Shown here: in pieces, positions 4,028 through 56,566 of the stretch
Numbering within the stretch: position 1 is the first letter of the stretch
Layout: each line of letters begins with the position of its first letter
NCBI GenBank assembly: GCA_016291085.1
Contig: JAEEVW010000004.1
Location: 1-64,000 of the forward strand
Direction: 5' to 3'
From: Prevotella sp.
Lineage (GTDB): Bacteria; Bacteroidota; Bacteroidia; Bacteroidales; Bacteroidaceae
Length of the DNA: 64,000 bases
Notes under the pieces: generated by a model
The model's database searches: none
Seen by the model: the letters and a program-made list of their open reading frames with translations, nothing else
What the model was told of the DNA's origin: nothing
Made by a program: the position numbers and the translations under genes

Positions 4028-5206
4028 TTATTTCTTCAGATAGAGCCCGTTCAGGTCGGAGAGGAACAGCGTGCGGGGGTCGTTGTAGAAACGGATGAAG
4101 TCGGACGCTGACTGCTGGCCTGGATAGGGTGCGAAGAAATGGTTCGGACGGTTGTGGGCATTGCGCCAGACGAGGGCGTAGCAGATGGGATGGCGTGCCA
4201 GGACGGGGGCCAGCGCGTGGGTCCACCAGTCGGGTGTCTTCACGCATTCATAGCCGGTCTCGGTGAGTGCCACGGCCTTATGATGCTGCTTGGCAATGGC
4301 ACAGACCATCTGGAGGTTCTTGTCGAGCGTGGCGGCATACTGGGCCACCTGCGTGGTATCGGCATCGGGTGCCCAGCAGTAGCAGTCGAGTCCCAAGAGG
4401 TCGATGCAGTCGTCGCCAGGATAGCGCTCGAGGTATTTCTCTGCGTCGCCATCGCTCTCAGTGCCTGGTGAATAGGCATAGAGTGCATTGGTGACGCCCT
4501 GCTGGCGCAGGCGGTCGATGGTGAGATGCCACAGTGCTTTGTACTGCTCGGCGGTGCAATGCTGCTGTCCCCACCAGAACCACGAACCGGTGTGTTCATG
4601 CCATGGGCGGAACAGGACGGGCACGCGGACGCCATAGGGTGTCTCGAGGGAGTTGAGGAACTGTGCCACGCGGTCGAGCCACGAGAGGAACACCTCGTGC
4701 TTTGCCCCACCCTCGAGCACGGCGGTCACGGTGCGCGTCTCGACGTCCTTGAGGGAGTCGGCGACCCACGAGGTGCCTCCGCTGAGCGGATTGTCGAGGT
4801 GCCACGACAGCGTCACCATGCCCCCGCGGCCAAAGTGGGCAATGGCCTCCTGGCGGATGCGCTGGAAGGGTACGCCGTCGAGGTTCAGGCTGTCGCCGAG
4901 CTCGAGGTGTCCGAGGTCGAAGCTGAGCAGGGCGGGATGGTCGCCACAGACGCTCTTGACGTCGCTGCGCTGATGGACGGTGGAGTCGTTGGCGTAGTCG
5001 GCCTCCCAGCCGATGCCATAGACGGTGGCGTCGTGCTGTCCGAAGAGGTAGACGCTGCTGTCGCCCAACGCCTTGAGGTTGTCGAGCAGGGTTTCCGTGC
5101 GCTGTGTGCGCCCGCTGTCGGCCAACGGATCGTCGGCCTTTTGCGATTTACTGCTGCAGCTCATCAGTAAGATGGCTGCAGCAGTAATAATCAGTTGATG
5201 TTTCAT
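4028..5206 (-). CDS. GH26 family beta-mannanase-like lipoprotein
   Basis: RPWHEHTGSWFWWGQ (acid/base region) and ALTETGYE (nucleophile region); lipoprotein signal MKHQLIITAAAILLMSCSS; start set to internal Met 22 of the supplied ORF. Confidence 0.85.
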   Translation of the reverse strand: MKHQLIITAAAILLMSCSSKSQKADDPLADSGRTQRTETLLDNLKALGDSSVYLFGQHDATVYGIGWEADYANDSTVHQRSDVKSVCGDHPALLSFDLGHLELGDSLNLDGVPFQRIRQEAIAHFGRGGMVTLSWHLDNPLSGGTSWVADSLKDVETRTVTAVLEGGAKHEVFLSWLDRVAQFLNSLETPYGVRVPVLFRPWHEHTGSWFWWGQQHCTAEQYKALWHLTIDRLRQQGVTNALYAYSPGTESDGDAEKYLERYPGDDCIDLLGLDCYCWAPDADTTQVAQYAATLDKNLQMVCAIAKQHHKAVALTETGYECVKTPDWWTHALAPVLARHPICYALVWRNAHNRPNHFFAPYPGQQSASDFIRFYNDPRTLFLSDLNGLYLKK

Positions 5207-5213
5207 AAAGTCG

Positions 5214-6770
5214 TTATTTCTCCGGTTCTGGCGAGTGAGTCCAAATGGCATCGAACCAGTAACTGGCATCGGTGTTGGTGCAGGCCTTGATCATGAGCGG
5301 CACGATGTCGGCGCCGTCGGCCACGAAACTACCGTCGTTGTGGTTGATGTAGTAGTTGACCTCGTTGCCGCCCGTAGTGAACAGAGCATCGTTGCCTGTA
5401 TTATCCCAAACCATCATCGGGATGCCAGCCAGATAGGCTGAACGGCAGAAGTACTCAAGGTAGTACTTACGGTAGGCGTTGGCTGGCGCTGTGGTCTGAT
5501 ATACGCATCCGTACTCTCCCAGATAGCAGGGGATGCCCTTCTCGATATAGGCAGTGCGCAGCTTGTAGAGCTGGTTGATGATGTACTCCTCGTTCTTATC
5601 GTCGACCGAGTAGCCCGGAATGGCATTATGTCCCCAGCTGTTCACTTTAAGGGTGTCTGCTTTTTCATCAACAGGTGCCAGACAGAAGTCGTACGGGTCG
5701 TAGCAGTGAACACCTACCATGATATGATTGGCGGGGTCGGTAGGCAGTACGAGATTTTTGATGGTCAGGTCGATGTTGGCAGCATAGCCCGAAACTCCGA
5801 TCCAACGGGTAACATTGTTACCACCAGATCCGCGAATGGCGTCAACGGCATACTGGTTCCATTTGTTCAGCATCTTGAACTGCTCATCTGAACCTGTGCC
5901 CCAGTCGTCGCCAGCATGTACCTCGTTGAAGGTCTCGAAAATGAGCTGGTCGTTGTAATTAGCAAAATACGTGGCAACTTGTGACCACAGGTTTGCAATA
6001 GCTGCAGAGTCGCTCTTTGCGACAAGTTTCTGGTTGGCAGCGCTGCCCAAATCAGTCTCGAACCAGTCATGATGAGTGTTCAGAATAACGTTAAGACCGG
6101 CTGCAATGGCCATGTCGACAACACCAGCCACTTCGTTGAGGTAGGCAGGGTCGAGCGTGTTTGTTCCCTTAATCATGTGGATGGACCATGTGACAGGGAC
6201 ACGTACGGTCTTGGCGCCGGCAGCAGCCAGTTTCTGGAACAGTGCCGGCTGGGGGGTAGCACCGTCCCAGTAGCCCCACTGCATGTTGCTGGTGTCGAAG
6301 TGGTTACCCAGGTTCCAGCCCCAGCCTAACTTCTTTGTCATAGCTGTTGCGTCGTTGCTGGGGAAGTCTTTGATAGTCCACGTGAAGTTTAACTCCTTGT
6401 CGTAGACGTCGCCTTGGGGACCGACAATGAGTCCTGCCGGAATCACCAGATTCTGCGTCTTATCGAAGCTGACATCGGCATAAATTGTCAACACGGAGTC
6501 TGCACCCAGTACCAGGGCTTTCTTGACAGGAACGCCATTCAGTGTGATCTTCTCCGTATTCTTGGTGGCAAAACCGATCCTTTTGTCGAACTTAACCTTG
6601 ATGGTCTTGTCGCCATATATCAGTGCAGAATTTACATCGGGAGATACGGCAGTAAATTCAGGGGCACCTACGACAGGTATACTGTACTGCGCATCAGTAT
6701 CGTTGCAGGCTGTGACAACGAGTGCCACAGCTGCAAGAGACAATGTATTGATAATATTTCTTAGTTTCAT
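5214..6770 (-). CDS. GH5 family endoglucanase/mannanase lipoprotein with N-terminal Ig-like domain
   Basis: LGWGWNLGNHFD, IFETFNEVHAGDDW and YLGEYGCVY motifs; lipobox TAC. Confidence 0.88.
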   Translation of the reverse strand: MKLRNIINTLSLAAVALVVTACNDTDAQYSIPVVGAPEFTAVSPDVNSALIYGDKTIKVKFDKRIGFATKNTEKITLNGVPVKKALVLGADSVLTIYADVSFDKTQNLVIPAGLIVGPQGDVYDKELNFTWTIKDFPSNDATAMTKKLGWGWNLGNHFDTSNMQWGYWDGATPQPALFQKLAAAGAKTVRVPVTWSIHMIKGTNTLDPAYLNEVAGVVDMAIAAGLNVILNTHHDWFETDLGSAANQKLVAKSDSAAIANLWSQVATYFANYNDQLIFETFNEVHAGDDWGTGSDEQFKMLNKWNQYAVDAIRGSGGNNVTRWIGVSGYAANIDLTIKNLVLPTDPANHIMVGVHCYDPYDFCLAPVDEKADTLKVNSWGHNAIPGYSVDDKNEEYIINQLYKLRTAYIEKGIPCYLGEYGCVYQTTAPANAYRKYYLEYFCRSAYLAGIPMMVWDNTGNDALFTTGGNEVNYYINHNDGSFVADGADIVPLMIKACTNTDASYWFDAIWTHSPEPEK

Positions 6771-17184: not shown

Positions 17185-17212
17185 GATGTCTGATGTCAGA
17201 TGTCTGATGTCA
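17185..17212. repeat. Heptanucleotide array GATGTCT/GATGTCA x4
   Basis: GATGTCT GATGTCA GATGTCT GATGTCA directly after the ilvC stop. Confidence 0.9.
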
Positions 17213-17228
17213 GATTCTTGTGTTTTGA

Positions 17229-21212: not shown

Positions 21213-24200
21213 ATGATTATTACAGCACCAACAACTAAAACGCAGTATGGTCTCTACGCAGAGTGTATCGCTCATCAAGGAGAGGCTTGTTATAATATAC
21301 CTTATCTTTATACGTTGGATGGCAGTCTAGATGGGGAACGGCTATGCAAAGCCATCGAGGCCGCAGTCAAAGCCCACCCCACGCTGTTCACCCGTATCGA
21401 GCTTACCGAGCAGGGAGACCCTATACAAACGATTCATGTGGATGACGATTTTGTCGTCATCCCCGAACCAACCACTGACATCGAGGCAGAAAAGAAATCG
21501 TTTATCCAGCCCTTCGATTTGTATAAAGACAGGCTGTTCCGCATTCGTCTGCTGAAAGATGCAGAACATTACTATCTGCTACAGGACATTCATCACATCA
21601 TTTGTGATGGTGCATCAAGAAAGGTGCTGTTGGCGGATATCGAGAAAGCCTATCGAGGTGAGACTTTGCCATCAGAAACACTCACTCTGGCTGATGTCGC
21701 CAATGCCGAGGCAGAGGTGCGAGAGACTTCGAAGTTCGAGGAAGATAAGAAGTGGTATGCTGAGCACTTCGACTGCGGCGATACCTATTCTCCGCTGTTG
21801 CCTGACTTGGAAGGGGAGGAGCCTACAGAGGGGTTGCTGACTCGAACGATGAGCGTGGGTATCGATGCCGTCGATGCCTTCTGTAAGGAGCACGCCATCT
21901 TTAAGAGTACATTCTTCACAGCAGCGTATGGTTTCCTGCTGGCAAAATACAATAATGAACAGGAAGCATTGTTCAATACAATCCATAATGGTCGTGCAGA
22001 CAAGAGACTTGCAAACTCAGTAGCGATGCTCGTCAGAACACTGCCCGTCTATGCCAAGTTTGACAATGACACCAGTGTGCTCGATTTCCTGAAGGCCGGA
22101 CAGGAGCAGATGACAGGATGCCGTCAACATGAGGCTTACGCTTATAGCGACATCATCCAAGATTTAGGTTTGCAGACTGCTACATCGTTTGGCTGGCATG
22201 GACCATTGTTTGACAGCCTGCAGTTTGATGGCAAACCCATGACTGCTCTGCGTCTGAACAACAATACCAGTGGTGTGGCTTTGTATGTGAAAGCCTATAT
22301 TCGTGACGGACACTACTGCGTGGAGGCTGAATATAACGCCAGTGAGTATTCTGAGGCACTGATTAGTCAGTTCTTGGAGAGCTACGAGGCAGTAATAAAC
22401 GGTTTCCTCGCTCAGGAACAGTTGTGTGACATCAGCCTGATAACATCTGCTCAGTTGGAAGTACTCGATAGTTTTAATCAGACCGATGTTCCCTACGATG
22501 ATACCCAAACCATCGTCTCGCTGTTCCGTCGTCAGGCTAAGGCCACGCCCGATAAGACAGCAGTGGTCTTTAAGGACAAGCGGTTCACATACGCAGAGGT
22601 AGATGAAATCAGCGACCGCATTGCAGGCTATATCGCATCAAAGGGACTTGGTTTAGAGGATATCGTTGCCGTCTTGATTCCACGTTGTGAGTGGATGGCC
22701 ATCGCCTCGCTGGGTATCATCAAGGCGGGATGTGCCTTCCAACCACTCGATCCCAGCTATCCGAAGGAGCGACTGAACTTCATGATGCAGGATACTGGAA
22801 CCAAGTTGCTGATAGCCGATGAGGAACTGCGCCCTATCGTGGATGAATATCATGGTGATGTTATATTGACGAAAGATCTGTTACTGTGTGCTGCGACTGA
22901 GTCGCAGCCAACAGCTCCAAAGCCTGAGAGTCTCTTCACCCTCATCTACACCTCGGGCTCAACAGGTGTACCCAAGGGCGGCATGTCTGAACACAGAAAC
23001 TGGGTGGCTTTCTGCAACATGCATCAGCATTTCTACAACATAACAGCAGAAAGCAAGGTGGCCGCATACGCCAGCTATGGTTTCGATGCCTCTCCGATGG
23101 AGATCTTCTCTGCACTTACCATTGGTGCTGAGTTGCATATCGTACCAGAGGAATTGCGTCTCGATCTTATTGCTCTGAACGACTATTTCGAGCAGAATGG
23201 TATCACTCATAGCTTTATGACCACACAGGTGGCCTACCAGTTTGCAACCAGTATCGAGAACCACTCGCTGAAGGCATTGATGACTGGTGGAGAAAAGCTG
23301 TCGACACTGACACCACCAAAGACCTTCAGTCTGACGAATGGCTATGGCCCGTCGGAGACTATCTGCTACGTCACCAACTACTGGGTGAAGGAGCGAATGA
23401 AGAACATTCCTATCGGTCCTGCCATGCAGAACTGTAAACTGTACATCGTTGACCCACAAGGCCATCGCCTGCCTGTGGGAGCTGCTGGTGAACTTTGGGT
23501 GGCTGGCCCACAGGTTACCAGAGGTTATCTGAACCGCCCAGAGAAGACGGCAGAGGTGTATATCGATAATCCGTTCATATCTCTCACCTCTCACCCCTCA
23601 TCCCTCACCTCTAAATACGCCCGCTGCTATCGCACTGGCGACATCGTGCGCTATCTGCCCGACGGAAACATCTCGTTTGTAGGTCGTCGCGACGGACAGG
23701 TGAAGATTCGTGGTTTCCGCATCGAACTGAAGGAAGTGGAGGCAGTGATTCGTGAATTCCCAGGTATTAAGGATGCTACCGTTCAGGCCTTTGATGAGGA
23801 GAGTGGTACGGGTAAGTTTATTGCGGCCTATATCGTCAGCGATCAACAGATAGATATCGATGCACTGAACAACTTTATCCTCGACCAGAAGCCACCGTAT
23901 ATGGTGCCTGCCGTGACGATGCAAATCGACGCCATCCCGCTGAACCAGAACCAAAAGGTAAACAAGAAGGCGCTTCCAAAGCCAGAAAAGAAAGCTGCTG
24001 CTATAGAGGAGTCAAATGTTCCTATGAATGTGCTGGAGCAGGAACTGCATGAGATGATTGCCGCTATCGTTGGCAACACGGATTTCGGCATTACTACCGT
24101 TCTCGGCTATGCTGGTCTAACCTCTATCTCTGCTATCAAACTCGCCGTTCAGGTCAATAAGCGCTATGGCGTGACATTGGATTCAAAGTCGCTGGTAAAG

Positions 24201-27200
24201 ACTGGTACACTTCAGAGCATTGAGAACGAGATTCTCCATTCATTGTTATCAGAAACAGAAGATGCTGCATCGCTTTCAGTCCGAAGCCGTCGGACTCACA
24301 GTCCGAAGCCGTCGGACTCACAGTCCGAAGCCGTCGGACTACCAGCGTCTGTGCCCCTCTCTTACGCTCAGACAGGTGTTTACTTCGAGTGTCTGAAGAA
24401 TCCTGAGACGACGCTTTATAACATTCCCACAAAGATTGGATTCCCAAAGGATACAGATGCGACAGCCATTATCGATGCTATCAAGGTTCTTGTGAAGGCG
24501 CATCCGCAAATGACTGTACATTTCGGCAATGGCGAAGAGGGCATCGTTCAGACTGTCGATTTGGAACAGGCTGTGGAGATTCCTGTGAAGCAGATGAGCG
24601 AACAGGAGTTGGCATCATACAAACACGACTTCGTACGTCCCTTCGACCTCGCCACGGGTCCGCTCTATCGCTTTGAAATCATAACGACTGAGACGCAGAC
24701 CTATCTGATGATGGATGTGCATCACCTGATTTTTGATGGTGGTTCTGTGGATATCTTCCTTCAGCAGCTATGTAGTGTGCTCGATGGTTTTGCCATCGAG
24801 GACGAAGATCAGTCCTATGCCGCCTACGTTACCGCCGAACAGGCCGTAGAGAGTGGTGAGGAATACACTAAAGCTCAGGATTTCTTCAAAGAGCGTCTGG
24901 CTGTTGTCGAGGCTGCTACTGAGGTGCGTCCTGATTTGCCCAATCCTACTAAGGGCACCATCAGTAAAGCTATTTCAGCGCTCGATATCAAGACCATCGA
25001 CGTTTTCTGTCGCAACAACAACATCACACCTGCTCATCTGATTCTGTCAGCTATATACTATTCTCTGTCACGCTTTGCCAACAGCGAGCAGGTATGCATC
25101 ACAACAGTCTCCAACGGCCGTTCTAACCTACTGATTCGCAATACGGTGGGAATGTTTGTCAACACCTTGGCACTTGGTGCGACCATCGGTAAACAGACCA
25201 TCAAAGAATTCCTGCAGGAGGTGAGCGAAAACTTCGACGAGACGTTGCGCCACGAGAACTATCCGTTCGCACAGATTGCAGCCGACTACGGTTTGACAGC
25301 TGAGATTCAGTTTGTTTATCAGCTCGGCGTCATCAGCCAATACGTCTGCAACGGTACACCATTGGAGTTGGAGGGCTTGGAATTGAAAGTGCCTAAGTTC
25401 CCCATTACCTTCTTTATTCGCGATATCGATGGACAGGCAAGCGTCTGCGTAGAATACGATAACGGCAAGTATTCTGAGCGGCTGATGCAGAGTCTGGCAG
25501 ATGCCGTGAAGGTTACTGTAGAGCGAATGATTGCCAAGCCCGAAGCCGCCCTGACGAGCATCAGCATTGTCAGCGACGAGGAGGCTGAGCGCATTATTAA
25601 AATAGGTACGGGCAAGGAGATTGACGTTGACCTCTCCAAGACCTTTGCCAACCTGTTTACTGAACAGGCCAAGCGCACGCCCGATGCACCCGCTGTGGTG
25701 GATCGCGACAGTCAGTTGACCTACGCTGAAATGGATAACTACTCGAATGCATTGGCTCGCCAGTTGATTGAGTTTGGCGTACAACCTAACGACTTCGTCT
25801 GCGTCATGCTCGACCGTTTCAAGGAGTTCCCATTGGCAGTGCTGTCTATCCATAAGGCAGGTGCCGCCTATACCCCACTCGACTTTGAATATCCCAACGA
25901 GCGACTGAGCTATATGTTGGAGAATTCTGAGTCGAAGGTGCTTATCACTTCTCACGATGTGCTTGAGGCCAAGATGGCCGAGGGCGACTTCAGTACCGCT
26001 GCCGCTAAGACCTTCTTCATCGACGACTTTATGGCGGATGTGGTTGGCGGTTCTCCCGCTGACGCTATCGACCTGTCAAATCCCGATGGTCTGGCCTATA
26101 TGATCTACACCTCTGGTTCTACAGGCAAGCCCAAGGGCGCCATGCTCCATCAGGCTGGTCTTCGCAACTTCATTGCTGTGGTCATTGACATGGAGAAGTT
26201 GACGGCTGCCGACCGCATCAGCGGACACCGCTCGTTCTCGTTCGATGCCCATATCGAGGATATGTATCCCGTATTGACGCTGGGCGGCTCGTTCCACATC
26301 ATGCCTACAGAGATTCGTAAGGACTTGGCTCAGATCCGCCAGTTCCTGATAGACCATCAGATTACGGGTGGTGGCTATTCGACGGCGATGACCTGTCTGC
26401 TGCTCAATGCCTTCGATGACCTGCCCATCCGATTCACAACGGGTGGTGGCGAGAAGATGGATGGCGTCTACAGCGACCATATCGAGATTATTAATGTCTA
26501 TGGTCCGACGGAGTGTACTGACGATACCTCTTATTATAGCATTGCTCCAGGCCGACGTGTGGAGAACATTCCTATTGGCCAAAGTGTAGCCAACAATTGG
26601 AACTTCATCGTCGATACTGCTGGCAATCTTGTGCCACAAGGTGTGGCTGGTGAACTCTGCTTCGCAGGTATTCAGGTTGGACGCGGCTATTGGCGACTGC
26701 CTGAGCGAACGGCGAAGTCGTTTGTCGACTGCCCGTTTGTAAAGGAAGACCGCTGGGGACGTCCTGTCCGTATGTACCACACGGGCGACCTCTGCCGTTG
26801 GTCGGAGGACGGTCAGATTGAGTACATGGGACGTATCGATACGCAAGTGAAACTACGTGGTTTCCGTATCGAGTTAGGCGAGATTGAGAGCAAGGTCTTG
26901 AACTTGGAAGGTATCCGCCAGGCAGCTGCCGAGGTGCGCAAGGTACAGGGCAACGAACACCTCGTACTCTACTATACTGTGGTCGACGGATTTGCCATCG
27001 ACAGCGACGCCATCCTCGCAGCACTCAAGGCTTCGTCTTTGGCCGAATACATGGTACCTGACGTCTATATGAAGATGGAGGTGATGCCGATGACGCCTAA
27101 CGGTAAGATTAATCGCAAGGCACTGCCCGCTCCAGAACTGCAGCGCACCACAGAGTATGAGGCTCCTAAGGGCGAGATGGAAGAGCTCTTCTGCACTATC

Positions 27201-28670
27201 TTCTCTGACATCCTTAAGATTCAGGAGGTGGGTGCTACAGATAACTTCTTCGAGATTGGTGGTACCAGCATCAATGCCATCAAGGTCATCGTAGAGGCTA
27301 GCAAGCACGGTGTACAAATCGTCTTCAACGACCTGTTCACCCAGAAGACGCCACGAGCGTTGGCTGCGTTTGTTAATGGCAGCGAAGCTAGTCCTTCTAG
27401 TCTGACTAGTACGACTAGTGAGACTAGCCCTCAAATCGACTCCCCAGAAGCAGAGCACTTTGCACCGCTGAATGCCCTCCTCGAAGCCAACAGTCTCGAC
27501 AATTTCCGTGAGGGCAAGCGTCAGCCAATCGGTGATGTTCTGCTCACAGGCGCTACTGGTTATCTTGGCATTCATATCCTCAATGAGTTGCTGACAAATT
27601 ATCACGGCAAGATTCTTTGTCCTGTCCGTGCTAAAGGAAACGACGAGGCATTGAGTCGCATCAAAACGCTCTATTATTACTACTTCGGTCGCACAGAGGC
27701 CTTCAGCCATTTCGATGAGCGTGTCACCGCCTTCGCCTGTGAAATAACAGAACCTGACGCATTAGCCACCGTGCCCGATGGTTTCCCGTCGGGTCCGCTA
27801 ACAGTCGTCAACTGCGTAGCCAACGTGAAGCACTTCTCTGCCGGCAACGACATCGAGATGGTGAACATCGAGTCAGTTCGTCACCTCGTGGCCTTCTGTC
27901 TGCGCACGGGTTCGCGCCTCATTCATATCTCGACGAACAGCATTGCAGGCCTCAGTATTGACGGCAAGCCCGGTCCTGAGGCGAAACTGACAGAACAGCT
28001 GCTCTGGCTCGGGCAGGATATCAACGACAACAAATATGTCTATTCGAAGTTTAAGGCCGAAGAACTGGTGCTCGATGCTGTAGCCCATCACGGACTGAAT
28101 GCCAAGATTATGCGTGTAGGTAATCTGTCTGCCCGTCAGAAGGACGGTGAGTTCCAGATTAACTTCAACACCAACAACTTCCTCGCCCTGCTACGTGCCT
28201 ATGTGGTTATTGGCATGGTGCCTTACGATGCGCTTGACCGCCGCTTTGAGTTCTCGCCCATCGACGAGGTGGCCAGTGCTATTATGCAGCTTGCCCAGAC
28301 CCCGAAAGAATGCGTGGTGTTCCATCCTTCCAACACCCACCGTCAGTTCCTCTCCGACATCCTCACAGGTTTTGCCGAGGCTGGCATCACGTTGAAACGT
28401 GTGGAAAACGAAGAGTTCCAGGAAGCACTCGGACGTATGATGGATAATCCTGATCTTGTCACACTCCTGCGTCCGCTGATGGCTTATAAGATGAGCGGTT
28501 CTCGACAGGTTCGTTTCATAGAATCTACCAACGACTACACCACTCAGGTGCTCTACCGTCTTGGCTTCCAATGGCCACCTACTGCAGCCGACTATGTCCA
28601 TCGCTTCGTTGACACCATCGTAGGTTTCGGATTCTTTGACCAAAGTCAAAGCGTAACACGCAATCTTTAA
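21213..28670 (+). CDS. Two-module non-ribosomal peptide synthetase, C-A-T-C-A-T-R (terminal thioester reductase)
   Basis: C motifs HHIICDG and HHLIFDG; A-domain YTSGSTGVPKG / YTSGSTGKPKG, YGPSE / YGPTE, YRTGD / YHTGD; T-domain serines in GLTSISAI and GGTSINAI; terminal R domain LLTGATGYLGIHILNELL with YVYSK. Confidence 0.95.
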   Translation: MIITAPTTKTQYGLYAECIAHQGEACYNIPYLYTLDGSLDGERLCKAIEAAVKAHPTLFTRIELTEQGDPIQTIHVDDDFVVIPEPTTDIEAEKKSFIQPFDLYKDRLFRIRLLKDAEHYYLLQDIHHIICDGASRKVLLADIEKAYRGETLPSETLTLADVANAEAEVRETSKFEEDKKWYAEHFDCGDTYSPLLPDLEGEEPTEGLLTRTMSVGIDAVDAFCKEHAIFKSTFFTAAYGFLLAKYNNEQEALFNTIHNGRADKRLANSVAMLVRTLPVYAKFDNDTSVLDFLKAGQEQMTGCRQHEAYAYSDIIQDLGLQTATSFGWHGPLFDSLQFDGKPMTALRLNNNTSGVALYVKAYIRDGHYCVEAEYNASEYSEALISQFLESYEAVINGFLAQEQLCDISLITSAQLEVLDSFNQTDVPYDDTQTIVSLFRRQAKATPDKTAVVFKDKRFTYAEVDEISDRIAGYIASKGLGLEDIVAVLIPRCEWMAIASLGIIKAGCAFQPLDPSYPKERLNFMMQDTGTKLLIADEELRPIVDEYHGDVILTKDLLLCAATESQPTAPKPESLFTLIYTSGSTGVPKGGMSEHRNWVAFCNMHQHFYNITAESKVAAYASYGFDASPMEIFSALTIGAELHIVPEELRLDLIALNDYFEQNGITHSFMTTQVAYQFATSIENHSLKALMTGGEKLSTLTPPKTFSLTNGYGPSETICYVTNYWVKERMKNIPIGPAMQNCKLYIVDPQGHRLPVGAAGELWVAGPQVTRGYLNRPEKTAEVYIDNPFISLTSHPSSLTSKYARCYRTGDIVRYLPDGNISFVGRRDGQVKIRGFRIELKEVEAVIREFPGIKDATVQAFDEESGTGKFIAAYIVSDQQIDIDALNNFILDQKPPYMVPAVTMQIDAIPLNQNQKVNKKALPKPEKKAAAIEESNVPMNVLEQELHEMIAAIVGNTDFGITTVLGYAGLTSISAIKLAVQVNKRYGVTLDSKSLVKTGTLQSIENEILHSLLSETEDAASLSVRSRRTHSPKPSDSQSEAVGLPASVPLSYAQTGVYFECLKNPETTLYNIPTKIGFPKDTDATAIIDAIKVLVKAHPQMTVHFGNGEEGIVQTVDLEQAVEIPVKQMSEQELASYKHDFVRPFDLATGPLYRFEIITTETQTYLMMDVHHLIFDGGSVDIFLQQLCSVLDGFAIEDEDQSYAAYVTAEQAVESGEEYTKAQDFFKERLAVVEAATEVRPDLPNPTKGTISKAISALDIKTIDVFCRNNNITPAHLILSAIYYSLSRFANSEQVCITTVSNGRSNLLIRNTVGMFVNTLALGATIGKQTIKEFLQEVSENFDETLRHENYPFAQIAADYGLTAEIQFVYQLGVISQYVCNGTPLELEGLELKVPKFPITFFIRDIDGQASVCVEYDNGKYSERLMQSLADAVKVTVERMIAKPEAALTSISIVSDEEAERIIKIGTGKEIDVDLSKTFANLFTEQAKRTPDAPAVVDRDSQLTYAEMDNYSNALARQLIEFGVQPNDFVCVMLDRFKEFPLAVLSIHKAGAAYTPLDFEYPNERLSYMLENSESKVLITSHDVLEAKMAEGDFSTAAAKTFFIDDFMADVVGGSPADAIDLSNPDGLAYMIYTSGSTGKPKGAMLHQAGLRNFIAVVIDMEKLTAADRISGHRSFSFDAHIEDMYPVLTLGGSFHIMPTEIRKDLAQIRQFLIDHQITGGGYSTAMTCLLLNAFDDLPIRFTTGGGEKMDGVYSDHIEIINVYGPTECTDDTSYYSIAPGRRVENIPIGQSVANNWNFIVDTAGNLVPQGVAGELCFAGIQVGRGYWRLPERTAKSFVDCPFVKEDRWGRPVRMYHTGDLCRWSEDGQIEYMGRIDTQVKLRGFRIELGEIESKVLNLEGIRQAAAEVRKVQGNEHLVLYYTVVDGFAIDSDAILAALKASSLAEYMVPDVYMKMEVMPMTPNGKINRKALPAPELQRTTEYEAPKGEMEELFCTIFSDILKIQEVGATDNFFEIGGTSINAIKVIVEASKHGVQIVFNDLFTQKTPRALAAFVNGSEASPSSLTSTTSETSPQIDSPEAEHFAPLNALLEANSLDNFREGKRQPIGDVLLTGATGYLGIHILNELLTNYHGKILCPVRAKGNDEALSRIKTLYYYYFGRTEAFSHFDERVTAFACEITEPDALATVPDGFPSGPLTVVNCVANVKHFSAGNDIEMVNIESVRHLVAFCLRTGSRLIHISTNSIAGLSIDGKPGPEAKLTEQLLWLGQDINDNKYVYSKFKAEELVLDAVAHHGLNAKIMRVGNLSARQKDGEFQINFNTNNFLALLRAYVVIGMVPYDALDRRFEFSPIDEVASAIMQLAQTPKECVVFHPSNTHRQFLSDILTGFAEAGITLKRVENEEFQEALGRMMDNPDLVTLLRPLMAYKMSGSRQVRFIESTNDYTTQVLYRLGFQWPPTAADYVHRFVDTIVGFGFFDQSQSVTRNL
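23580..23614. repeat. Heptanucleotide array (core CTCA at 7-bp spacing) inside NRPS A1
   Basis: CTCA at 23583, 23590, 23597, 23604; encodes SLTSHPSSLTS before the YRTGD motif. Confidence 0.8.
24277..24341. repeat. Three tandem 22-bp hairpin units inside the NRPS T1-C2 linker
   Basis: CAGTCCGAAGCCGTCGGACTCA starting at 24277, 24299, 24321; each contains AGTCCGA-AGCCG-TCGGACT. Confidence 0.97.
27388..27432. repeat. CTAG-N5 array, 5 units, exact 9-bp period, in the NRPS T2-R linker
   Basis: CTAG at 27388, 27397, 27406, 27415, 27424. Confidence 0.97.
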
Positions 28671-28723: not shown

Positions 28724-29560
28724 TTGAAACAGATGGAATTACAACAGTTGACACTGAGTGTCTGTAGAGTGGCTCGCGAGGCAGGTGCATATATAAAAAA
28801 GGAACGCGCGAGCTTTTCGTTGGACAAAGTGGAGCGCAAGCATGCCCACGACTATGTGTCGTATGTGGACAAAGGGTCGGAGCAAATGATTGTGAAAGCC
28901 CTGCGCAAAATATTACCCGAGGCAGGCTTTATTACGGAAGAAGGCACGACGAAGGATGATGTAAGAGGTCAGAAAAAAAATGTTTCCGACGTCAGCCCTC
29001 AGCCATCAGATTTCACCTGGGTAGTAGATCCTCTGGATGGTACGACGAACTTCATTCATGGTTTTGCACCATATGCCGTGAGTATTGCTCTCTGCAAAGG
29101 TCGCGAAATCGTAATCGGTGTGGTTTACGAGATCGTCAGCGATGAGTGTTTCTATGCCTGGCAGAATGGTGGTGCTTTTGTCAATGAAGAGCCTCTCCAT
29201 GTTGGAACGAGTGCCATTAACGATGCCCTGCTTTGTTTGCAGTTGCCCTACAATAGCGATGCCTACAAGCCCATCATTACCCGATTGCTGAACCGTTTCT
29301 ATGGCAACGTGGGCAGCATTCGCATGTTGGGTTCGGCAGCTATTGCTTTATGCTATGTGGCAGCAGGCCGTTTAGATGCATACGCCGAGCGGTATATCGG
29401 CCAGTGGGACTATATGGCTGGTGCACTGATTGTCAAGGAGGCTGGTGGACGTGTCACGAACTATGCAGGCGATGACTATTTCATGGAGGGCGACAGCATC
29501 GTGGCCACAAATAGCGTCGTACATCAAGACTTGCTGGAAGCCGTCAGACAAGCTGAATAA
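28724..29560 (+). CDS. Inositol monophosphatase family protein
   Basis: WVVDPLDGTTNFIHG, QWDYMAGALIVKEAGG. Confidence 0.9.
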   Translation: MKQMELQQLTLSVCRVAREAGAYIKKERASFSLDKVERKHAHDYVSYVDKGSEQMIVKALRKILPEAGFITEEGTTKDDVRGQKKNVSDVSPQPSDFTWVVDPLDGTTNFIHGFAPYAVSIALCKGREIVIGVVYEIVSDECFYAWQNGGAFVNEEPLHVGTSAINDALLCLQLPYNSDAYKPIITRLLNRFYGNVGSIRMLGSAAIALCYVAAGRLDAYAERYIGQWDYMAGALIVKEAGGRVTNYAGDDYFMEGDSIVATNSVVHQDLLEAVRQAE

Positions 29561-31493
29561 ATCCGTCGTCCTGGCGGATTTTTTCTTCTTTTATTAGGAA
29601 TGCAAGTGCTGCATCAAGTTCTTCCGTCGGCAACTGCAGGCGGAAAAGTTCCGTGATGTGGTGACGCTGGCGGTCAGCCAGTAGTGCGAGGATGCGCTGA
29701 CGGGCATCCTGCTGGCCCTCGGGCGTAACCAGACGGCCCTGCTCAGAAAGACACACATCGCATTGCCCGCAATTCGTGGAGGTCTCCTCGCCAAAATACT
29801 CCAAAAGCATACGGCTCCGACAACGGTCGCTGCTCTGCGCATAACGGAGCATGGATTGAATGCGCAGGCGATATTGCTCCAGGCGGTCTTCGTAAATTTC
29901 GCGTGGCAGCTGGATGTGCTCCTGGTCTTCGCGACGCTGCATATAGCGGATGTATGGCACCTGCTTGCGAGGAATGAAACTGACGAGGTGGCGCATGGAG
30001 AGGGCTTTCAGTATGTCGTAGGTCTGAGGCTGCGACAATCCTGCCTGTTGGGCCAGCATACCCTCATCAATATAACCATAGTCGGCAAAAAGTCCACCAT
30101 AGTTGCGTAGCAGGGCCACAATGACACGTTCTTCCTCGGGGGAAACCTGTTCCAAACGATAGAGATCGTCGCGGCCCACCAGGAAACGTACGCGAGCCTG
30201 ATGGTCTGCCTCCTCATCATATTCGATGTATCCTGCACGTTGCAGAATTTGGAGGGCTGAATATACACGAATAGGGAAATGACGAAAGCGCTGGCAGAAC
30301 TCCTCGATGTTGAATTCGTGGCTGACACCATAGCCGTCACCGGTGGCTATCTGGTAGTAGTAGGCCAGATGTTCGTAAACCTCTTTAATATACTCACGCG
30401 GGGGAAAGGTATCATCGATACGTTTCGTCAGTTTGCCGTTGTCGTTGCCGTTGAAGAGCAAGATGGCACGGGCTGGTTGACCGTCACGGCCCGCACGGCC
30501 TGCCTCTTGGAAGTATGCCTCCAGTGAATCAGGACAGTCGTAGTGGATAACCTGTCGGACATCGGGCTTATCGATACCCATTCCAAAAGCGTTGGTGGCT
30601 ACCATGATGCGCACAGCATCGTGTTGCCAGTCGCGCTGGCGGCGATCCTTGTCTGCGTGGTCTAACCCAGCATGATAGAAGGTGGCAGAGAGTCCCGCTT
30701 CCGTCAGGTGTTCGGCAATCTCGCGAGCATGAAGACGACTACGGACATAGACAATGGCAGAACCACCCGATTCCTGTAAAAGACGGATGAGTTCGAAGTG
30801 CTTGTCTGCGGCATAGTGAACCAAATAGGCCAAGTTTTTGCGCTCGAAGGACATGCGAAAAACGTTAAAGCTAGTCTTACTAGTCAGACTAGTAGGACTA
30901 GTCATACTAGGAATACTAGATTCTCTACTCAGCTTGTCCTGGATGTCCTCCACCACTTTGGGCGTAGCGGTAGCGGTAAGCGCCAACACGGGGGCTTCCG
31001 GGCAGATTTCACGGATGTTGGCAATTTCCAAATAGGAAGGTCGGAAATCGTAGCCCCATTGGGAGATACAGTGTGCTTCGTCGACGGTGATGAAACTCAC
31101 CTGCATATGGCGCAGCTTGGTCTGAAACAGACTACTGCCCAACCGTTCGGGAGACACATAGAGAATTTTGGAACTTCCCAAAATACAGTTTTCCAAGATG
31201 CGCAACACCTGCTCGTGCGTCATACCGCTGTAAATGGCAGCAGCCTGGATATCCAGCTGGCGCAAGTGGTGCACTTGGTCCTTCATGAGGGCAATGAGTG
31301 GTGTGATGACTACACAAACACCCTCCTGAGCCAGAGCTGGTACTTGGAAGGTAATGCTTTTGCCGCCACCCGTAGGCATCAGTCCAAGCGTATCGTGACC
31401 AGCACCAATGGACTCGATGATTTCGCGCTGAATGCCGCGAAAATCATCATAGCCCCAATATCGTTTAAGAATGAGTTGATACTTATCACTCAT
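29544..31493 (-). CDS. recQ: ATP-dependent DNA helicase RecQ
   Basis: LMPTGGGKSITFQVPAL, DEAHCISQWGYDFRPSY, GRAGRDGQPA, Zn-binding C-terminal cysteines, winged helix. Confidence 0.95.
   Translation of the reverse strand: MSDKYQLILKRYWGYDDFRGIQREIIESIGAGHDTLGLMPTGGGKSITFQVPALAQEGVCVVITPLIALMKDQVHHLRQLDIQAAAIYSGMTHEQVLRILENCILGSSKILYVSPERLGSSLFQTKLRHMQVSFITVDEAHCISQWGYDFRPSYLEIANIREICPEAPVLALTATATPKVVEDIQDKLSRESSIPSMTSPTSLTSKTSFNVFRMSFERKNLAYLVHYAADKHFELIRLLQESGGSAIVYVRSRLHAREIAEHLTEAGLSATFYHAGLDHADKDRRQRDWQHDAVRIMVATNAFGMGIDKPDVRQVIHYDCPDSLEAYFQEAGRAGRDGQPARAILLFNGNDNGKLTKRIDDTFPPREYIKEVYEHLAYYYQIATGDGYGVSHEFNIEEFCQRFRHFPIRVYSALQILQRAGYIEYDEEADHQARVRFLVGRDDLYRLEQVSPEEERVIVALLRNYGGLFADYGYIDEGMLAQQAGLSQPQTYDILKALSMRHLVSFIPRKQVPYIRYMQRREDQEHIQLPREIYEDRLEQYRLRIQSMLRYAQSSDRCRSRMLLEYFGEETSTNCGQCDVCLSEQGRLVTPEGQQDARQRILALLADRQRHHITELFRLQLPTEELDAALAFLIKEEKIRQDDGFIQLV
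30871..30924. repeat. CTAG-N5 array, 6 units, exact 9-bp period, inside recQ
   Basis: CTAG at 30871, 30880, 30889, 30898, 30907, 30916; encodes SSIPSMTSPTSLTSKTS. Confidence 0.97.
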
Positions 31494-44264: not shown

Positions 44265-44269
44265 AGAGA

Positions 44270-44297
44270 GTTGACAGTTGATAGTTGACAGTTGAGA
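44270..44297. repeat. Heptanucleotide array GTTGANA x4
   Basis: GTTGACA GTTGATA GTTGACA GTTGAGA between mreC and mreD. Confidence 0.92.
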
Positions 44298-49696: not shown

Positions 49697-49715
49697 ATTT
49701 TTTCGTTATTACGAT

Positions 49716-49755
49716 ATTTCGTTATTCCGTTATTCGGTTATTTCGTTATTTCTGA
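49716..49755. repeat. 8-bp period array ATTNCGTT x4-5 between ricT and holB
   Basis: ATTTCGTT ATTCCGTT ATTCGGTT ATTTCGTT ATTTCTGA. Confidence 0.85.
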
Positions 49756-52491: not shown

Positions 52492-52848
52492 ATGAAAAGA
52501 ATACTTATAGCTGAAGACAACGACAGCAATTACATATTGATGAACTATATCCTGAAGAAGCACTACGAGTTCTTCCGTGCCCGTAACGGGCAGGAAGCCG
52601 TAGAGCTGGCAGAATCGGAAAAGCCCGATTTGATTCTGATGGATATCAAGATGCCTGTCATGGACGGTCTTGAGGCCACACGGCAGATTAGGGCCAAGAT
52701 GCCCGACATGCCGATTGTCGCCCTGACAGCCAACGCCTTCGACAGTGACCGCCATTCCGCTTTCGAAGCAGGGTGCAACGATTTCCTCTCGAAGCCCGTC
52801 AATGCTGAGAAGTGCATTCAGACCATTGCGAAATACATTGGCGAATGA
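52492..52848 (+). CDS. Single-domain response regulator (receiver only)
   Basis: AEDNDSN, LILMDIKMPVMDG, ALTANAF, FLSKPVN. Confidence 0.92.
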   Translation: MKRILIAEDNDSNYILMNYILKKHYEFFRARNGQEAVELAESEKPDLILMDIKMPVMDGLEATRQIRAKMPDMPIVALTANAFDSDRHSAFEAGCNDFLSKPVNAEKCIQTIAKYIGE

Positions 52849-53891
52849 AACCACAGAAAGTCATTCTTTCCACAAATTTGCAGCAATCGCTTTCCGAGGC
52901 GGTTGCTGCATGCAAATATGACGTATTGTTTGTCCTCGTCGACGAAACCACCGAACGCCTTTGTCTGCCTGTCGTTGCCGATTTCGAATGCATGCAGTCT
53001 GCCCAGCGCATCGTTATCAAAGACACCGACACGAACAAAACGCTCGAGTCAGTCGTCCACGTATGGTCCGAACTGCAACGTCTGGGAGCCACACGCCACT
53101 CGCTGATGATTAATCTGGGAGGAGGCATGGTGACCGATTTGGGTGGTTTTGCAGCATCAACCTTCAAGCGCGGCATACAATACATTAATATCCCCACGAC
53201 GCTGCTTTCCATGGTCGATGCCTCCGTGGGCGGAAAGACCGGTTTTAACTTCGGAGGTCTCAAAAACGAGATTGGCGTGTTCAACAATGCCAGTTCCGTC
53301 ATCCTTGACACGACGTTCCTCCGCACCATGGATCACGAGAATCTGCTTTCCGGCTATGCCGAGATGCTGAAACACGGACTCATCTCCAATGATAAGATGT
53401 GGGCGGAGCTATTAAATCTAGAGAATCTAGACAATCTGGATATACTAGGCAAAATGCTCGCTGACAGCGTTGCCGTCAAACAGCGCATCGTCACGGAAGA
53501 CCCCACCGAACAGGGCATCCGCAAAGCACTCAACCTCGGACATACTGCTGGGCACGCCTTCGAGTCGATGGCTCTGGAGCGCACCCCCATCCTTCACGGC
53601 TATGCAGTGGCCTACGGACTCATCGTCGAGCTCTACCTCAGCTGTGTAAAGACGGGATTTCCCCAAGACAAGATGCGCCAGACGGTGTCGTTCATCAAAG
53701 AACACTACGGACGCATGGCTATCACCTGCGACGACTATCCCCACCTGATAGCCCTGATGCATCACGACAAGAAGAACACGGGCCGCGACATCAATTTCAC
53801 CCTATTGGGCGACATTGGCGATATCCGCATCAACCAGACTGCATCGGAAGACGACATCAAGGAAGCCCTCGACTTCTATCGCGAGTGCTAA
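52845..53891 (+). CDS. aroB: 3-dehydroquinate synthase
   Basis: GGGMVTDLGGFAASTFKRGI, TTLLSMVDASVGGKTGFN, NLGHTAGHAFE; ATGA overlap with the response regulator. Confidence 0.95.
   Translation: MKPQKVILSTNLQQSLSEAVAACKYDVLFVLVDETTERLCLPVVADFECMQSAQRIVIKDTDTNKTLESVVHVWSELQRLGATRHSLMINLGGGMVTDLGGFAASTFKRGIQYINIPTTLLSMVDASVGGKTGFNFGGLKNEIGVFNNASSVILDTTFLRTMDHENLLSGYAEMLKHGLISNDKMWAELLNLENLDNLDILGKMLADSVAVKQRIVTEDPTEQGIRKALNLGHTAGHAFESMALERTPILHGYAVAYGLIVELYLSCVKTGFPQDKMRQTVSFIKEHYGRMAITCDDYPHLIALMHHDKKNTGRDINFTLLGDIGDIRINQTASEDDIKEALDFYREC
53418..53453. repeat. CTAG-N5 array, 4 units (one CTGG), 9-bp period, inside aroB
   Basis: CTAG at 53418, 53427, CTGG at 53436, CTAG at 53445; encodes LENLDNLDILG. 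Confidence 0.9.
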
Positions 53892-55081: not shown

Positions 55082-56566
55082 TTAAAATACTATTGCTTCG
55101 TAAACATACAACTCCGCATCCTTCCAGCCATCCCATCCGATGCCAGCCTTGTCCTGAGCACAATGGCCCACAAACTCCTCCTTCGTCCAGTTTACTTCAT
55201 CGGCAACCTGAGGCAGGAACGTGCCACTGCGATAACCTTTCTTGATATAGATGCCATGCTTGTGCAACTGGAATTCATCCAGATTCTGAATGCGACGCAT
55301 AGGTGTCAGCACAGAGATTTCGATGTCAATATCGTCCAGTTCGTCTCTGGTTACAGGCATGAACCGCGGATCTTCAAAGGCAGCGGCACGAGCCATTTCT
55401 GCAACTATTTCGTGCAATGGCACGTCTTCTCCAAAGTGACCAATGCAGCCACGCAACCGCCCCTGCTTGTGTAACGACACAAATGCGCCACATCTTGAAT
55501 TGAGAATTGAAAATTGAGAATTGAGAGTTGGCTGCGCAATTCGTTTGCCATCAAGACTGTCCTTGATACTTGTCAGTGCTATGGCCTTCAGCATCCGTTT
55601 TTCCTCGTCATTCAATGAGAATTCACTCTTTCTCAGTATCGCAAACGCATGATAGCCCACCACACGACTATGGTCGTGATTATCAATGTCACCGGAGTTC
55701 TGATACAGCAGATGTTTCACTTCGTAGCCGCCATCCTGCATCATCAGCATCAGCGTAGCAATGGCCAGCTCTCCGCAGGCACTCGTAGCCAGATTCTTCA
55801 CACCACTTCTGGCGTTTTTCTCTAGCTGAGCGATAAAGCGTTCCACGTCACCGCTCTCCACAGCCTTGCCTGTCCGAGCATCCACCTCGCAGGCATCCTC
55901 ATATTTCGGATAGTGCGAGAAGTCGCTGCTCACCACAAACAGATTCTCTTCCGTCATATACGGCTTCAGTACTTCTGCTATCTTTTGCAACTTCCTAAAA
56001 TCGTTTGTCGATATAATAATCGGTACAATCGGTGGTACTTCGCCAAATCTTCTCTGTAGGAACGGCAACTGAACCTCTAGACAATGCTCCCTATCATGAG
56101 CCTTGGGATTATAAAAGAACACAGAATCCGTTTTATCCGTGCCATCCGTGTTCGTTAATAATCTTGCCGTCTCGACATCTACCTTCACATTGCCCAATGG
56201 TGTACTGTAATAGTCGTATTCCGTATTCACCGAAGCCCCATCAAGCCACTCATGATGGCTTGGTCCCAACAGAAATATCCGCTTGTACTGCACATCGTCA
56301 GGTATCGACTGATACGCCGCTGCAGCCACATTGCCAGAAAAATAGTAGCCTGCATGAGGCACTATCAACGCTGCCACATGCTTGTATTTCTTATCCTTGG
56401 CATGTATCGTCAAGAAGCTATCCACCTCCTCGCTCAGTTCCTTGGCATCACCCGTATAGAAACGGTTCGCCTGAGTTGCAGGTCTTACTATCGGCTCCTT
56501 CGCCACGTTCCCGTTACATGTATTCATCATCATTACAGCTATGATTATTGTCAACAGTTTCATCAT
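55082..56566 (-). CDS. MEMO1-like (AmmeMemoRadiSam B) fused to AMMECR1 domain (AmmeMemoRadiSam A)
   Basis: ALIVPHAGYYFSGNVAAAAY, VVSSDFSHYPKYED; FVSLHKQGRLRGCIGHF. Confidence 0.92.
   Translation of the reverse strand: MMKLLTIIIAVMMMNTCNGNVAKEPIVRPATQANRFYTGDAKELSEEVDSFLTIHAKDKKYKHVAALIVPHAGYYFSGNVAAAAYQSIPDDVQYKRIFLLGPSHHEWLDGASVNTEYDYYSTPLGNVKVDVETARLLTNTDGTDKTDSVFFYNPKAHDREHCLEVQLPFLQRRFGEVPPIVPIIISTNDFRKLQKIAEVLKPYMTEENLFVVSSDFSHYPKYEDACEVDARTGKAVESGDVERFIAQLEKNARSGVKNLATSACGELAIATLMLMMQDGGYEVKHLLYQNSGDIDNHDHSRVVGYHAFAILRKSEFSLNDEEKRMLKAIALTSIKDSLDGKRIAQPTLNSQFSILNSRCGAFVSLHKQGRLRGCIGHFGEDVPLHEIVAEMARAAAFEDPRFMPVTRDELDDIDIEISVLTPMRRIQNLDEFQLHKHGIYIKKGYRSGTFLPQVADEVNWTKEEFVGHCAQDKAGIGWDGWKDAELYVYEAIVF
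55499..55530. repeat. Heptanucleotide array ATTGARA x4-5 in the MEMO-AMMECR1 linker
   Basis: ATTG at 55499, 55506, 55513, 55520, GTTG at 55527. Confidence 0.9.

Follow-up and report, generated by a model that had tools for sequence, protein, structure and literature searches.

Periodic CTAG arrays in recQ and other genes of Prevotella and their linkage to genes of the TIGR04258 four-helix family

REP elements with their RAYT transposases combine dispersed short repeats with a cognate gene that is itself flanked by repeats, and Rickettsia palindromic elements sit in frame in essential genes, at loops that tolerate them. For BldC of Streptomyces, sites with a variable number of 9-bp units have been described, each unit consisting of a 4-bp core and free positions (PMC5859096), and the TAACTGA heptamer repeats of Beggiatoaceae and some Bacteroidetes are short tandem arrays located beside start codons, patchy in their distribution and possibly transferred (PMC4679880). 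Here we describe arrays in which a CTAG core recurs at a fixed step in the DNA of Prevotella, starting from one inside recQ, together with the gene family to which they are linked. In the open-licence papers searched, nothing was found on CTAG arrays in Prevotella, on a role of TIGR04258 proteins or on a link between the two.

Arrays in recQ and elsewhere in the window

The window is the whole stretch of 64,000 nucleotides that was analysed, part of the genome designated here as G000 (3.63 Mb, 78 contigs). The first-pass annotation had reported six CTAG words inside recQ, and each of them was re-found, at 30871, 30880, 30889, 30898, 30907 and 30916, in exact 9-bp steps, the last one ending at 30919. 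Two further arrays which it had assigned to the same family, in a putative NRPS gene and in aroB, also proved to be real members of it. The features concerned are listed below.

29544–31493, minus strand: recQ (649 aa), in which the array forms part of a variable loop between the helicase lobes, at about residues 191–207
30871–30919, strand not applicable: six-unit CTAG-N5 array of period 9 in recQ, with the spacers TCTTA, TCAGA, TAGGA, TCATA and GAATA
21213–28670, plus strand: large ORF (2485 aa) hosting the five-unit array, a putative NRPS, the name being that of the first-pass annotation
27388–27427, strand not applicable: five-unit CTAG-N5 array in the 2485-aa NRPS ORF, encoding ASPSSLTSTTSETSP
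52812–53891, plus strand: aroB, 3-dehydroquinate synthase (359 aa)
53418–53448, strand not applicable: four-unit array with one unit decayed (CTAG.CTAG.CTGG.CTAG) in aroB, in the LEN/LDN frame

The three-unit CTAG-N5 pattern occurs seven times in the window and not once in 100 dinucleotide-preserving shuffles, which excludes chance as the origin of arrays of the recQ type. CTAG as such is scarce (34 observed versus approximately 118 expected), 14 of the 34 copies belong to arrays, and every pair of CTAG words lying less than 60 bp apart is separated by 9, 18, 27, 36 or 45 bp. Further tandem arrays, built of words of 7 or 8 bp, are present in the window at 17185–17215, 44269–44295, 49701–49752 and 55497–55530.

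Read in the minus-strand ORF, the recQ array translates as SSIPSMTSPTSLTSKTS, at about residues 191–207, and is bracketed by the DEAD lobe (residues 21–183) and the Helicase_C domain (234–338), which agrees with the position between the two helicase lobes originally proposed for it. The proposal that this is a tolerant loop is likewise borne out: residues 194–207 are without structure in the AlphaFold model (pLDDT<50), the array appears as an insertion in the interdomain loop when aligned to RecQ of the E. coli type, and among 30 RecQ sequences of the genus it is found in G000 only, the 29 orthologues carrying a decayed array in the same loop (G013), different short repeats or nothing. The RecQ interdomain loop is a general landing place for repeats. 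As the array is nearly confined to G000 and the loop is unstructured in the model, there is no ground to expect an altered helicase function. In aroB the array is without a large insertion relative to solved AroB structures.

The repeats occupying the RecQ loop of relatives are a decayed CTAG array at L283 (G013) and others at L275 (G033), L292 (G059), L279 (G037) and L286 (G032); the families represented are, besides the decayed CTAG array, GAGAGGT heptamers, the GAATTACGAATT type, the CCTCCCC/GGGGAGG type and CCACAGG words.

Distribution of the arrays and constraint on their cores

The complete G000 genome contains 106 overlapping four-unit matches, equivalent to about 43 arrays of at least four units, versus none for the reversed control, and these arrays are not copies of each other, the longest stretch in common being 24 bp. 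Within the genus (a Prevotella-like sample of 71 genomes) the distribution is very patchy: 37 genomes have four-unit matches, from 1 to 189 each, and 34 have none, several of the latter being 98–99% complete. Outside the genus, matches were obtained in one of 48 members of the order, while the five-unit pattern, run against 396 genomes of the phylum, matched only in G000 and in one plain tandem repeat; since this last sample had few members of the window's family, the range limit of the arrays is approximate. Named records with arrays belong mostly to Prevotella and related Bacteroidales and include the cultured Prevotella conceptionensis, Hoylesella shahii and Prevotellamassilia timonensis, so the arrays are not an artefact of metagenome assembly.

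Exact four-unit CTAG matches in the 71 genomes number 0 at period 8, approximately 1,200 at period 9 (37 genomes, the total being the sum of per-genome counts), 122 at period 10 (10 genomes) and a single one at period 11. The period goes with the genome, as G008 and G019 have period 10 only, many genomes have period 9 only and some, G000, G027 and G063 among them, have both. When all 256 tetramers were counted at periods 6–15 in the sampled DNA, no other combination came near CTAG at period 9 in frequency, a ranking biased toward CTAG because most of this DNA was fetched by the CTAG pattern. The sole period-11 array of the sampled genus is located at L483:5063-5099 (G000 C46:68062).

Several other loci deserve mention in their own right. 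A six-unit array at L305:5693-5741 lies between rplL-like and rpoB-like genes (read by eye), after an attenuator-like hairpin, and G022 has an array at the same position. In G010, arrays at L315:13912-13942, L317:10200-10230 and L322:5450-5480 sit inside inverted repeats (GAGAGTT heptamers, GATGCCCGTC/GACGGGCATC), some of them in near-identical copies resembling palindromic mobile elements. A chromosomal array domain common to G000 and G010 was looked for and not found, and the array-dense part of G010 was rejected as an island because it contains core genes.

Of the 44 arrays found in 447 kb of G000, 31 are inside ORFs, each in one of the two stop-free frames and never in the one in which TAG would be a stop; arrays also occur between genes. 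The coding frames yield TSx or SRx in linkers and tails and, in a few cases, LVx, including the cores of predicted signal peptides, which were judged by eye. Genes for alanyl-tRNA synthetase, DXS, IspG, IlvD, RNase R, ClpC, Tex, AroB and RecQ are among the hosts. Outside arrays, only 4 of 456 TS dipeptides produce CTAG, and CTA makes up 3.5% of Leu codons and 1.5% of those that precede a G-starting codon, where it creates CTAG.

Thirteen array-bearing genes were compared with those of six relatives, fetched irrespective of their CTAG content. Where both orthologues hold at least four CTAG, to which the following figures are conditional, differing positions amount to 15% in the core, 47% in the spacers and 34% in the flanks, and within a single array the spacers are unlike each other while CTAG is invariant. 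In RNase R, GcvP, a 4Fe-4S protein, RlmL, Uup and AlaRS, several species share an array position in one loop, and other species have no array there. In GcvP of G000 and G033, five Leu codons are all CTA, which gives five CTAG in step without any insertion, and relatives with a closely similar peptide use CTG or TTG; the IlvD array likewise leaves protein length unchanged, whereas in RecQ, AlaRS, Tex, GH3, ClpC, MgsA and DXS the array is an insertion. With cores kept, gcvP recoded, ilvD unchanged in length and other genes bearing insertions, the ortholog panel shows several routes of array origin and upkeep at the nucleic-acid level: what keeps the arrays, even in essential genes, is selection on DNA or RNA and not on the peptide.

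The bases next to the core vary by genome, being ACTAGT in G000 and TCTAGA in G033 and G007, which suggests a trans-acting reader of drifting preference. The original view of the recQ array as an inserted DNA element stands for the recQ copy, which is an insertion, and is not supported as a general description, because the gcvP and ilvD arrays involve no change in length and no G000 array is a copy of another; the arrays are better described as a core-and-spacing motif under selection, to which a cognate protein probably belongs. An interpretation as stop-codon arrays was rejected, as it leaves the C and G flanks and the exact steps unexplained.

The four-helix protein linked to the arrays

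Clustering of the genes neighbouring arrays gave one standout family. Its G000 member (L304:5941-6594, 217 aa) is bracketed by the two longest arrays of the genome, of 14 and 12 units. In all the DNA examined, a total of 21 homologues was found, 20 of them distinct; CTAG arrays adjoin 19 of these, often on both sides, and the twentieth has TAGG/CCTA arrays instead, an adjacency that is biased since most homologues come from loci fetched for their arrays, the locus of Prevotella nigrescens alone being free of this bias. Typically the arrays begin 2–50 nt past the stop codon or 12–60 nt before the start.

Because most other loci were fetched for arrays, the P. nigrescens FDAARGOS_1486 locus, which was reached via protein similarity alone, is the cleanest test of adjacency: its 12.6 kb contain just four CTAG, all in a single array lying 47 nt past the stop codon, on a replicon that has, over 162 kb, 16-fold fewer CTAG than expected. 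The culturable Prevotellamassilia timonensis is another species with the gene. In G005, G006 and G014, every four-unit match of the genome is at the four-helix gene, and G008, which has matches at period 10 and none at period 9, has arrays of period 10 around its copy of the gene. The period-10 arrays sampled in G000, G019 and G027 had no homologue next to them. A second G000 paralogue has TAGG-N5 repeated nine times and then CCTA-N5 seven times at the gene's end (L342:2363-2509), and a solo five-unit CCTA-N5 array lies between two other genes elsewhere (L336:4243-4283); core and paralogue therefore seem to be paired.

All seven proteins scanned, including that of G000, match the TIGR04258 four helix bundle suffix model at 45–77 bits (cut-off 40 bits), and the eight scanned with PF05635 (S23, the 23S rRNA intervening-sequence protein) score 19–31 bits versus a gathering threshold of 33.8. 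In the structure model four helices form a bundle and the C-terminal helix is long; the top Foldseek matches, at a probability of 0.93–1.00 but with weak E-values (E>0.05), are 2GSC and 2RLD, both S23/IVP proteins. None of the homologues lies within a 23S rRNA gene, all being located between protein-coding ORFs.

Three homologue loci are of separate note. At L138:790-1476 (also L015, G014) a stop and a frameshift make a pseudogene of the array-flanked gene, so the arrays there outlast it. At L041, outside the 71-genome sample, the gene at 4577-5242 has long period-8 CTAG arrays upstream and period-9 arrays downstream. L079 is in a contig binned as Kiritimatiellae, which may reflect transfer or a binning error.

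Other candidates for reader or carrier were rejected. TrpR was dropped, as no Trp repressor match above cut-off was found in the 71 genus genomes, with the E. coli control detected, and RRM proteins, as no CUAG or UAG motif was found in the RRM literature examined. In G010, L316:885-2365, by the dense array region, encodes a ParA-like ATPase and a partner of 184 aa, and the stretch between the two has about 20 CTAG at irregular intervals; the pair was rejected since the partner does not track array presence. Phages were rejected as carriers because viral matches to varied-spacer arrays are mostly serine/glycine-rich protein repeats, and the four-helix homologue is absent from the viral contigs and phage records searched.

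Interpretation and comparison with known systems

The arrays, with their periods and their constraint at the nucleic-acid level, are physically linked to the TIGR04258 gene family, and we put a probability of about 0.6 on the reading that the approximately 43 arrays of at least four units in G000, that of recQ among them, are cognate nucleic-acid sites of a protein of this family. Recognition would depend on CTAG cores set at a constant step, 9 in one dialect and 10 in another, with spacers free to vary, and the protein would probably act as an oligomer, its sites comprising those on its own gene and dispersed ones; the bracketing of the gene by the longest arrays suggests self-regulation. Sites would arise by insertion or point mutation wherever transcript or protein tolerates them (loops, tails, signal peptides, intergenic gaps) and would then be held by selection on the CTAG cores. 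As most orthologous positions are without arrays, array function at any given site is dispensable.

The reading could take two forms, of which RNA is slightly favoured over DNA as the working form. In the first, quite possible if somewhat short of even odds, CUAG repeats would fold back or base-pair in trans from one mRNA to another, and this RNA would be the ligand of the four-helix protein. Arrays are almost confined to transcribed positions, and their self-complementary cores permit fold-back. Co-directional genes flank 90 of the 130 intergenic arrays, 35 are where genes converge and 5 where they diverge, and the slight preference for RNA rests on the 125 in the first two classes and on the non-palindromic TAGG array followed by its inverted CCTA partner, the arrangement that fold-back would need. 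Also consistent with RNA are the placement of arrays 2–50 nt past stop codons or 16–60 nt before starts of the cognate gene, the purine-rich sense-strand spacers (67 to 23), folding better than that of shuffles (z −2.0 to −5.9) and the apparent fold kinship with 23S rRNA intervening-sequence proteins. Any palindromic tandem core is expected to fold back, though, and the purine bias may come from A-rich leaders; moreover, arrays within ORFs show no strand bias, those of G010 occur in both orientations and the solo CCTA array is unable to fold back.

In the second form, which is rather doubtful, the protein, as an oligomer, would coat the double-stranded DNA of CTAG arrays and so serve regulation or nucleoid structure, much as BldC does on 9-bp direct repeats. 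The palindromic core and the precedent of BldC, whose 9-bp repeats, bound in varying number, each contain a 4-bp core (PMC5859096), favour DNA, as do the exact steps of 9 or 10 bp, the variable unit number and the strong genome-wide shortage of CTAG outside arrays; against it, the linked protein is a four-helix bundle and not a winged helix, and the arrays avoid divergent promoter regions.

Unlikely, but more serious than what follows, is a mobile repeat with a cognate gene as in REP/RAYT, in which the gene with flanking arrays would be the autonomous unit and solo arrays its copies. It would fit this reading that several loci have arrays on either side of the gene, that neighbouring genes mostly differ by locus, that one homologue is in a Kiritimatiellae-binned contig and that array-bearing loops can grow by 7–17 residues; yet the G000 arrays share at most 24 bp and are not copies, those of GcvP and IlvD came without insertion, cores are constrained after arrival, and a transposase or phage link was not found. 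Neutral tandem repeats expanded by slippage in tolerant places are very improbable: some arrays have higher-order duplications (the 12-unit array of L304) and the RecQ loop of relatives is taken up by short repeats of other families, but spacers differ within an array where cores are fixed, period and core are specific, and gcvP was recoded without insertion. Selection for TSx or LVx peptide repeats, to which the TSx of linkers and LVx of signal peptides might point, can be dismissed as practically negligible, being at odds with the use of two frames and the exchange of TSx for SRD while CTAG stays, with both strands and non-coding copies involved and so few TS dipeptides outside arrays (4/456) written with CTAG.

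If the arrays are cognate sites of a TIGR04258 protein, a tentative extension, for which the odds are against rather than for, would be a family of genome-wide two-part systems, each four-helix-suffix paralogue reading its own dialect (CTAG at 9, CTAG at 10, TAGG/CCTA at 9) at dozens to hundreds of sites written by selection into coding and non-coding transcripts, essential genes included, with array-bearing transcripts or loci gathered via the protein and mutually complementary cores. The preferred reading, if true, would mean a class of sites present in dozens per genome, inside essential genes, under selection strong enough to rewrite codons, and thus a layer of sequence information missed by annotation in a major gut and oral genus. 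The TIGR04258 family, which is without an assigned role, gains a concrete candidate ligand, and the differing steps and cores between genomes constitute a natural experiment on the co-change of reader and site. Should the linkage prove to reflect transposition, it would still be a new pairing of repeat and gene.

Among known systems, a simple tandem repeat or VNTR has near-identical units, whereas in CTAG arrays the spacers vary and CTAG is invariant; in TAACTGA repeats the whole unit is fixed, and here only CTAG and the step. Of the models NCBIfam TIGR04258, TIGR02436 and PF05635, the array-flanked protein is above the cut-off of the first; its modelled fold resembles that of S23/IVP proteins, at weak E-values, the eight scanned score below the PF05635 cut-off, and the gene lies outside 23S rRNA. 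Avd, a protein of diversity-generating retroelements, in which a reverse transcriptase and a template repeat accompany the gene, is likewise a four-helix bundle. Rickettsia palindromic elements are alike in lying in-frame in tolerant loops of essential genes, but theirs is a conserved inserted sequence, whereas the G000 arrays share at most 24 bp and arrays can arise by codon change, gcvP and ilvD having no insertion. REP-RAYT systems are alike in their dispersed repeats and repeat-flanked gene, and differ in that their cognate is a Y1 transposase, the candidate here being a TIGR04258 protein, without the GTAG hairpin module and with arrays that are not copies. BldC sites resemble the arrays in their 9-bp units with a 4-bp core; BldC is MerR-like with sites in promoter regions, in contrast to the four-helix bundle found here, the sites of which would lie in coding and intercistronic DNA.
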